Shown here: one piece after another, positions 43,961 through 45,955 of the stretch
Numbering within the stretch: position 1 is the first letter of the stretch
How the letters are laid out: each line of letters starts with the position of its first letter
NCBI RefSeq assembly: GCF_000012085.2
Contig: NC_008710.1
Coordinates: 372,001-436,000 of the forward strand
Origin: Borrelia turicatae 91E135
GTDB taxonomy: Bacteria; Spirochaetota; Spirochaetia; Borreliales; Borreliaceae
Length of the DNA stretch: 64,000 bases
Reading direction: 5' to 3'
Program-made: the position numbers and the translations under genes
The notes under the pieces: model-generated
The model's database searches: none
The model's input: only the letters and a program-made list of their open reading frames with translations
Told to the model about the DNA's origin: nothing

Positions 43961-44224
43961 TTATAGACAAAATGTCATTAATTTATAAAATAAAAAGAGA
44001 TTCTTTGCTCTTAAAGGCAAATCGTATTGTTTCTTATACTAATTATCCAAATCAATGCTATTTAGATCTCTAATATGAATATCGTAATCTTTAACTAATA
44101 AGAAAATAGTAAAATCACCAAATAAAGATCATACATTAAAATGTATCTTTAAAAACCATGCGAAAGAGCAAAGAATAGCCTTATCAACCTGCAAATCAAA
44201 TCTATACTTAAATTTATATTTATA
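43961..44224 (-). pseudogene. Possible gene remnant with two in-frame stops
   Basis: One minus-strand frame reads protein-like for 88 codons with only two internal stops. It gives KYRFDLQVDKAILCSFAW...HFNV, TGA, SLFGDFTIFLLVKDYDIHIR...LDN, TAG, then YKKQYDLPLRAKNLFLFYKL. In sequence this AT-rich, more stops would be expected by chance. It fills the space where B. burgdorferi has a small gene between proS and the outer-membrane pair (from memory), so it may be its decayed relic. No start codon with a ribosome site is seen. A chance open frame cannot be excluded. Confidence 0.35.
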
Positions 44225-44258
44225 TTAAAAATATGTCAAATATATTTTTAATATAAAT
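44218..44258. repeat. 17-bp perfect inverted repeat
   Basis: Arms 44218-44234 and 44242-44258 are perfectly complementary (17 bp, all A/T) around the 7-nt loop GTCAAAT. The loop and adjacent bases contain TTGACA on the minus strand (44239-44234). It could be a cruciform, protein-binding site or RNA hairpin. Confidence 0.75.
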
Positions 44259-44517
44259 CTTTGCTCTAATATTTATTTTTATAAGTTACAAAAATATGTT
44301 TGTATTTCACAATAGATGTTTGAAAAAAATGTGTAGAAAAATATTTATGGGTTTAACTTTAATAGTATACCAAAAATTGACATCAATTAAAACAAATCCA
44401 ATTTTTATAACTCAAAATCATTAAAAACATGTTGAGATAAAAAAATTTTTTACATTTTATGAAACATAATTTTAAAAATTGTGCACATCTAATCGAACAT
44501 AAGTTGAAGGAGAATTT
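44225..44517. other. Gene-poor segment before the outer-membrane pair
   Basis: No convincing coding frame on either strand. It holds the right arm of the 17-bp inverted repeat, a TCTTTGCTCT motif (44258-44267) repeated from 44001-44011 and inverted at 44165-44176, and a plus-strand TTGACA at 44377-44382 without a well-placed -10. The last 60 nt lead to the 44518 gene with a GAAGGAG ribosome site. With the preceding remnant this forms the largest stretch without an intact gene in the window. Confidence 0.6.
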
Positions 44518-45117
44518 ATGAAGACATTGTTAAAACTGATTATGGTTTTTTTAACAAGTTTATCTGTTGCGACAACAATTAATACATCAAATCTTAATAA
44601 AATATTAAATAAGCAACAAACCCAATTTAGATCATTTGGAATAGGGTTTGGAATTGGCAACCCTATCACTAATATCATAATTAATTTCCCATATGTAGAC
44701 ATAGATATTGGATATGGGGGCTTTAATGGATTACATCCTAACAATTTCATACCTTATATTGTTTTTGGAACTGATATCCTATTTAAAGAAGAAATTTATC
44801 AGAGTATAATGCTCACCGGTGGGCTTGGCATAGGTATCGACTTGTCTCAAATAAAACCAGACGAACAAAATAGTTCAAACATAAAACAAGAAAATACTCA
44901 AGACAAACAAGAAGAATTTTCAATAGCCTCATCTAACAATAGGTTAGGAATTGTGTTTAGACTTCCTATTATATTAGAATACAGTTTTTTGACAAATGTT
45001 GTAATAGGCTTCAAAGCTATAACAACAATTGGAGGAACAATGATATTTCAACCTACATCAATGGAAGGAATAAGATTTGGATTTTTTGGTTTTGGATTCA
45101 TAAAAATATACATTTAA
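44518..45117 (+). CDS. Outer-membrane beta-barrel protein (BB0405-like)
   Basis: 199-residue protein with signal peptide (MKTLLKLIMVFLTSLSVATT). The mature part has alternating hydrophobic strands: RSFGIGFGIGNPITNIIINF, PYVDIDIGYGGFNGLHPNNF, YSFLTNVVIGFKAITTIGG, and a C-terminal FGFGFIKIYI that looks like a terminal barrel strand. It matches remembered B. burgdorferi BB0405, reported as a surface-exposed porin-like protein needed in mammalian infection. A charged Asn/Gln-rich loop (about residues 115-140) looks surface-exposed and variable. It is followed 10 nt later by a paralogue. Confidence 0.85.
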   Translation: MKTLLKLIMVFLTSLSVATTINTSNLNKILNKQQTQFRSFGIGFGIGNPITNIIINFPYVDIDIGYGGFNGLHPNNFIPYIVFGTDILFKEEIYQSIMLTGGLGIGIDLSQIKPDEQNSSNIKQENTQDKQEEFSIASSNNRLGIVFRLPIILEYSFLTNVVIGFKAITTIGGTMIFQPTSMEGIRFGFFGFGFIKIYI

Positions 45118-45127
45118 AGGAAAATTG

Positions 45128-45955
45128 ATGAAAAACAATACTCAAAAAATATTTATATTATTGTTAATATTTAATTTACACCATTTTGCGTTCTCCAAAT
45201 CTAATAATAATTATTCCATCAGATGCAAACAAGAAGATGATGGAACAACCTGTATCACAAATGATAAACCTATCATTGAAGAACCTAAACTTACCCTTGA
45301 AGAACCTAAACTTACCCTTGAAGAACCTAAGCCTATCATTGAAGAACCTAAGCCTATCATTGAAGAACCTAAACTTACCCTTGAAGAGCCTAAACCCATC
45401 TCTGAAGAACCTAAACTTATCCTTGAAGAGCCTAAACCCATCTTTGAAGAACCTAAACCACAAATCATTACAAATTTTCACGCAATACACAGGGAAAAAA
45501 ATCCTTACTCATTTGCAGCGGGAATAGGAACTGGAAATCCTCTTATCAATCTTTTAATCTCAGTTCCATATGTAGACATAGATATTGGATATGGTAGTTT
45601 CTTATACTTTAATCCTACAAATTTTAAGCCTTACAATTTAATTGCCATCGATCTAATTTTTAAACAACAAATAGGAGAATATTTAATAGTTGGAGGAGGC
45701 GTTGGAATTGGAACAGACTGGTCCCAAGCAAATTTAACTTCCCTTGGAACTACACAACCCTCTCCTTATGATAGGATAGGAATAGTAACCAGATTACCTT
45801 TATCAATAGAACATAAAATTATAAAAAATTTATCATTAGGATTTAAAGTTTATCCTACACTTGGTCCAACAATATTTCTCACAAAACCAAAAATAGTATT
45901 TGAAGGGATAAGATTTAAATTCTTCGCAATCGGGTTTATTAGAGTTTTCATGTAA
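45128..45955 (+). CDS. Outer-membrane protein with EEPK repeat domain (BB0406-like)
   Basis: 275-residue paralogue of the preceding gene. The ATG at 45128 is chosen (AAGG 7 nt upstream; a TTG lies one codon earlier). A signal peptide (about residues 1-23) is followed by a short linker with two cysteines. Then come nine 7-residue repeats EEPKxxx (residues 51-113), then the barrel domain: FAAGIGTGNPLINLLISVPY, VDIDIGYGSFLYFNPTNF, FKVYPTLGPTIFL, and end strand FFAIGFIRVFM. Remembered B. burgdorferi BB0406 is about 203 residues, so the repeat block accounts for the extra ~70. It could span the periplasm or be surface-exposed. Confidence 0.85.
   Translation: MKNNTQKIFILLLIFNLHHFAFSKSNNNYSIRCKQEDDGTTCITNDKPIIEEPKLTLEEPKLTLEEPKPIIEEPKPIIEEPKLTLEEPKPISEEPKLILEEPKPIFEEPKPQIITNFHAIHREKNPYSFAAGIGTGNPLINLLISVPYVDIDIGYGSFLYFNPTNFKPYNLIAIDLIFKQQIGEYLIVGGGVGIGTDWSQANLTSLGTTQPSPYDRIGIVTRLPLSIEHKIIKNLSLGFKVYPTLGPTIFLTKPKIVFEGIRFKFFAIGFIRVFM
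45278..45466 (+). repeat. 21-bp tandem repeat, nine copies
   Basis: Nine in-frame copies of a 21-nt unit (GAAGAACCTAAACTTACCCTT and variants) encode EEPKLTL, EEPKPII and related heptads. Copies differ mostly at codons 5-7 and in GAA/GAG. The two main unit types alternate in blocks, suggesting slippage or recombination. Being a multiple of 3, gain or loss of units keeps the frame. Confidence 0.95.

Follow-up and report, generated by a model that had tools for sequence, protein, structure and literature searches.

A tandemly repeated, proline-rich linker and candidate periplasmic stalk ahead of the predicted barrel of the BB0406 orthologue in Borrelia turicatae

The window analysed here, a stretch of 64,000 nucleotides from Borrelia turicatae 91E135, harbors two neighbouring genes on the forward strand, both encoding DUF3996 proteins. 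The downstream gene (45128..45955, ATG at 45128, stop codon TAA) encodes the orthologue of the outer-membrane barrel protein BB0406 (275 amino acids) and is preceded by a Shine-Dalgarno-like aaagga at 45116-45121. Its product matches DUF3996 (PF13161) over residues 123-272 with an E-value of 4e-44 (150.5 bits versus a Pfam cut-off of 22). The upstream gene (44518..45117) encodes the BB0405 orthologue, a DUF3996 paralogue (Pfam E-value 2.4e-41) without a cysteine pair and, as originally predicted, free of the repeat. Since the gap between both genes measures 10 bp, they are probably co-transcribed here, as has been shown for BB0405 and BB0406 of the Lyme group (PMC4939628). Promoter and terminator signals predicted around the genes did not rise above chance level. 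Between a proline-tRNA-ligase-like ORF and the bb0405 orthologue, approx 550 bp (43971-44517) contain no forward ORF of at least 80 amino acids, whereas in B. burgdorferi an overlap of bb0404 with bb0405 has been reported (PMC4939628).

Residues 1-23 of the BB0406 orthologue (45128..45196, ending in HHFAFS) were assigned to a signal peptide by inspection, and residues 2-23 form a helix in the AF2 model. The peptide reads as a type I signal rather than a lipoprotein signal, since the first cysteine is residue 33, is preceded by arginine and lies well beyond the hydrophobic stretch. A lipobox with a cysteine at the end of the signal peptide, the criterion for Borrelia surface lipoproteins, was absent on inspection. 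An N-terminal C-x8-C segment follows (residues 30-45, 45215..45262; orthologue alignment), which is predicted by AF2 to form a beta-hairpin; the codons of its cysteines, C33 and C42, are located at 45224-45226 and 45251-45253. The linker from the second cysteine to the barrel anchor (45254..45502) comprises 83 amino acids with 18% proline and a net charge of -8, and contains the tandem array (45265..45459). It leads into the DUF3996 domain (45494..45943), a predicted OmpA-like barrel (Pfam, AF2, Foldseek). In the original prediction the heptads were placed directly after the signal peptide; the intervening cysteine segment had been overlooked.

The array was reported by TRF as 9.3 copies of a 21-bp period at 45265-45459 (84% matches, score 257), with a 63-bp super-period (score 292). 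It consists of nine KxxxEEP units (45266-45454) and a partial unit. Read as EEPKxxx, the nine predicted heptads at 45278-45466 are found on translation in the reading frame that starts with the ATG 45128. The nucleotide self-identity of the linker at a lag of 21 is 0.706, far above the values obtained in 5000 codon shuffles (0.323 +/- 0.036, maximum 0.474), so that the array is not due to chance. Two kinds of unit, with proline or leucine at position 2, are present as described earlier, but they alternate only in part (order P L L P P L P L P). Pairwise comparison of the units gives 28 synonymous and 0 nonsynonymous codon differences at K, E, E and P, compared to 6 and 65, respectively, in the other three columns of the unit; as the units are not independent and approximately eight changes underlie these counts, the exclusively synonymous change at K, E, E and P is suggestive only. 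When the whole chromosome (917,330 bp) was scanned, the array ranked fifth among the tandem-repeat loci. The four stronger arrays (210540-211468, 570020-570756, 523105-523614 and 854558-854941 on contig G000:C1) have periods of 36, 63, 99 and 135 bp. A mobile or dispersed element was rejected, the repeat being single-copy in the genome with only a 20-bp match elsewhere.

Orthologues were drawn from 36 Borreliaceae genomes, one per species (18 Borrelia and 18 Borreliella). In all 36, the BB0406-type gene lies directly downstream of the bb0405-type gene, and the reading frame of every BB0406 orthologue is intact. The linker following the second cysteine is 36-147 amino acids long and contains proline (13-40%) in 18/18 Borrelia species, whereas it is 12 amino acids long and proline-free in 18/18 Borreliella. 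This bears out the expectation that the Lyme-group orthologues lack a stalk before the barrel, and the B. burgdorferi counterpart, described as approximately 70 residues shorter, fits as well (203-204 amino acids in Borreliella orthologues versus 275). The linker is, however, genus-wide and not an insertion particular to the B. turicatae genome. Repetitive arrays are present in 12 relapsing-fever-type genomes, which form a well supported branch of the barrel tree. The unit comprises seven residues in nine of these and differs in the remaining three (G005, G007 and G009, the last being B. persica). The linkers of the other six Borrelia genomes are shorter, mostly non-repetitive and proline-containing. 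A nine-copy block shared by all species including the Lyme group was not found at the species level, where the linkers differ. The barrel tree, taken as unrooted, is compatible with gain of the stalk in Borrelia as well as with its loss in Borreliella. In the linkers of G009 and G003, shorter 12-bp sub-units (KPEP, EPEI) either replace the 21-bp unit or are found inside it, which indicates that the repeat period itself shifts between lineages.

The available part of PMC4939628 states that the relapsing-fever orthologues do not cluster with those of the Lyme group, and does not mention the repeat. The openly licensed literature yielded neither a paper on the relapsing-fever BB0406 orthologue or its repeats nor experiments on this protein. 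DUF3996 has been called unique to Borrelia (PMC8409650); in a class-level search, weak matches above the Pfam cut-off were obtained outside the Borreliaceae (G040, G065, G069, G087, G097, G100, G134 and others). NCBIfam contains no family for the window protein, and the longest repeat protein gave only weak matches below the cut-off.

The arrays differ even between close relatives. B. turicatae and its sisters G008 and G010 share barrel DNA of approximately 97% identity, but their arrays are built from different units in different numbers (KPII/KLTL-EEP in B. turicatae, KYTL/TTSL-EEP in G008 and 11 identical KPILEEP units in G010). In G003 and B. recurrentis (G004), the 126 bp that precede the linker and the 450 bp that follow it (576 bp of coding sequence) match without a difference, while the linkers differ by 27 bp and several substitutions. 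Since the linker alone differs between identical flanks, the array is a fast, homogenising coding VNTR. Within-array identity reaches 1.000 in G010 and 0.990 in G001, which has 18 near-identical units, with synonymous sites included. Homogenised units and diverging sister arrays are what the slippage or unequal recombination proposed earlier would leave behind, and the pattern reads as concerted evolution by either process with the frame always kept. The barrel is conserved (dN/dS 0.02-0.35 in the tested pairs), while linker units differ between sisters. The length variation anticipated between strains is found between species (linkers of 36-147 amino acids in Borrelia). The acidity attributed to the stalk turned out to be lineage-specific, as the net charge of the linker ranges from -11 to +22 across Borrelia species, which weakens a specific role in binding through acidic residues. 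Hydrophilicity, a proline content of 13-40% and near-absence of glycine (0-1 residues) persist throughout. With proline and hydrophilicity retained while the sign of the charge flips, a spacer is favoured over a specific ligand site.

In the AF2 model, residues 44-122 have pLDDT values below 50, and the linker is predicted to be disordered, while most of the barrel scores 70-95. No solved structure matched the window protein by sequence. The best Foldseek matches are outer-membrane barrels including CarO, NspA, OprF and OmpA, all with E-values above 0.001 and probabilities near 1; the TM-scores to the target are roughly 0.5-0.6 for NspA, OprF and OmpA (0.61 for 1qjp, 0.60 for 4rlc). DSSP assigned nine strand segments to the domain, or eight if the break at 150-151 is a kink, a count to be read alongside the Foldseek E-values above 0.001. 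With eight strands, the termini would lie on the side of the short turns and the longer loops (86-92, 131-138 and 179-182) on the opposite side. The N-terminus of an even-stranded outer-membrane barrel is periplasmic. From eight strands and this outer-membrane convention, we infer that the N-terminal stalk would be located in the periplasm. An 8-stranded barrel has also been proposed for BAPKO_0422, a protein of the BB0405 type (review PMC6627623).

The C-x8-C segment upstream of the linker is invariant in all 36 BB0406 orthologues, with the consensus Y-x-I/V-x-C-x-x-E-x-D-G/S-T-T-C. By inspection, the BB0405 paralogues lack the cysteine pair, and no N-terminal pair is present in three other ORFs of the DUF3996 family in the B. 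turicatae genome (bb0562-564 cluster). AF2 predicts two strands joined by a two-residue turn in both the window protein (30-36/39-45) and a Lyme-type protein (27-34/37-44). In the predicted register the cysteines are set opposite each other (33+42 = 36+39 and 31+40 = 34+37, respectively); the pLDDT there averages 42-70 per block, which corresponds to low to moderate confidence. DsbA, DsbB, VKOR and Thioredoxin_4 gave no match in the B. turicatae genome, whereas the same searches were positive in control genomes. The conserved cysteine pair of BB0406 was not found mentioned in the openly licensed literature.

These features are best explained, at somewhat better than even confidence, by an OmpA-like barrel with an N-terminal, proline-rich periplasmic stalk that bears the cysteine hairpin at its tip and serves as a spacer. 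A small barrel would sit in the outer membrane with its N-terminus in the periplasm, and a hydrophilic, proline-rich and largely disordered stalk would link it to the short hairpin. The stalk might allow the hairpin to reach off the outer membrane toward peptidoglycan, the flagella or another periplasmic partner; it would set the reach while avoiding sticking or folding. Fully extended, at 0.31 nm per residue, it would measure at most approximately 26 nm in B. turicatae and 11-46 nm across species. Slippage or unequal recombination would add, remove and homogenise 21-bp units and in this way adjust stalk length, with selection presumably keeping the frame, proline and hydrophilicity but not the exact sequence. 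Among the roles originally offered, the periplasm-spanning stalk fits best. As a counterpoint to a stalk made for reach, the Lyme version with its 12 residues must do without one.

The chief rival is a neutral VNTR, in which a permissive disordered linker between folded parts is merely tolerated and drifts in length by slippage. We consider it possible, although clearly less probable than the spacer. The units vary in sequence and number, the charge varies too, Borreliella lacks the stalk, and mouse infection by B. burgdorferi is reported to need bb0405 but not bb0406 (PMC8409650, PMC6545822). Drift is harder to reconcile with a linker that is present in 18/18 Borrelia, is never frame-broken or shorter than 36 amino acids, and always contains proline with little or no glycine. 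The 28:0 ratio of synonymous to nonsynonymous differences at the K, E, E and P codons, versus 6:65 elsewhere in the unit, also points away from neutrality, within the limit set by non-independent units and approximately eight changes.

A surface-exposed variable antigen, with the stalk outside the cell and its turnover evading antibodies, is less likely and on the whole improbable. Repeats are typical of such antigens, and the array turns over quickly between close relatives even where the flanks are 100% identical. The immunogenic proteins BB0405 and BB0406 are targets of borreliacidal antibodies (review PMC6627623), and laminin binding has been reported for BB0406 (review PMC10566445). Laminin binding and borreliacidal antibodies imply that some part of BB0406 must be accessible, which counts against a periplasmic reading. 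On the other side, an even-stranded barrel would put the N-terminus in the periplasm, and the protein has no lipoprotein signal. Furthermore, the Lyme orthologue BB0406 resists proteinase K on intact cells (PMC4939628). The host-facing antigen suggested at first is therefore the less likely of the roles, and the locus is better described, as a predicted function, as a periplasmic spacer with a conserved hairpin than as an antigen.

Also improbable is a barrel-tethered periplasmic thiol hairpin that would work, depending on redox state or metal, as a sensor or clamp between the outer membrane and a periplasmic partner. A tethered plug or threaded tail, in which the hairpin inserts into the barrel from the periplasmic side and gates the pore, or is threaded through it to the cell surface while the stalk serves as a leash, is very unlikely. 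Pore formation in liposomes is described for the outer-membrane proteins BB0405 and BB0406 (PMC4939628), and a precedent is provided by the lipoprotein RcsF, with its proline-rich disordered N-terminal region that becomes partly surface exposed in complex with outer-membrane proteins (PMC9907809). The lumen of an 8-strand barrel is, however, narrow and filled with side chains, as in OmpA, and nothing can be read from the models on how the hairpin would pack against the barrel. An assembly or annotation artefact is highly improbable: perfect arrays such as the 11 identical units of G010 or the 18 near-identical ones of G001 might have been miscounted during assembly, but the units in the window are heterogeneous, the ORF is intact and a linker occupies the same place in 17 other Borrelia.

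The putative periplasmic spacer can be compared to several known systems. BB0406 and BB0405 of B. burgdorferi share the gene order and the barrel domain, and BB0406 also the C-x8-C segment, but the linker of Lyme BB0406 is short and proline-free, and BB0405 has neither cysteine pair nor stalk. OmpA and OprF resemble the predicted barrel in Foldseek (E-values above 0.001), and OmpA possesses a proline-rich linker from the barrel to its C-terminal domain (PMC9560509). The linker of B. turicatae is instead N-terminal, long and tandem-repeated, and the predicted cysteine hairpin takes the place of the peptidoglycan-binding domain. A C-terminal domain of that kind is absent (Pfam, AF2), DUF3996 being the only domain and the protein ending with the last barrel strand. 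Domain II of TonB and TolA is a proline-rich polyproline-II spacer that spans the periplasm and varies in composition and length among species (PMC12204202). TonB and TolA, however, have an inner-membrane anchor and are driven by a motor, whereas the B. turicatae stalk would hang from an outer-membrane barrel with no known motor partner. Their architecture (inner-membrane helix, domain II and globular C-terminal domain) was not found, as the protein ends in the barrel with DUF3996 as its sole domain and the N-terminal helix, on inspection, looks like a signal peptide that is cleaved off. RcsF with OmpA, OmpC or OmpF combines a disordered proline-rich region, disulfides (in RcsF) and an outer-membrane barrel (PMC9907809); RcsF is a separate lipoprotein, while here stalk and barrel form one chain and the cysteine part is a tiny predicted hairpin. 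The stalk would work on a principle similar to that of the OmpA and TonB linkers, but the protein is a member of neither family.

The coding VNTR separates close relatives, here B. recurrentis from its nearest neighbour, and might be used as a typing marker. The conserved cysteine pair of BB0406 is flagged in a genome without a match to four disulfide-forming families. For the Borreliaceae, the locus provides a natural comparison of one outer-membrane protein with a long, a short or almost no stalk (relapsing-fever species, other Borrelia and the Lyme group, respectively), and the two groups with and without the stalk constitute a natural test of its role.
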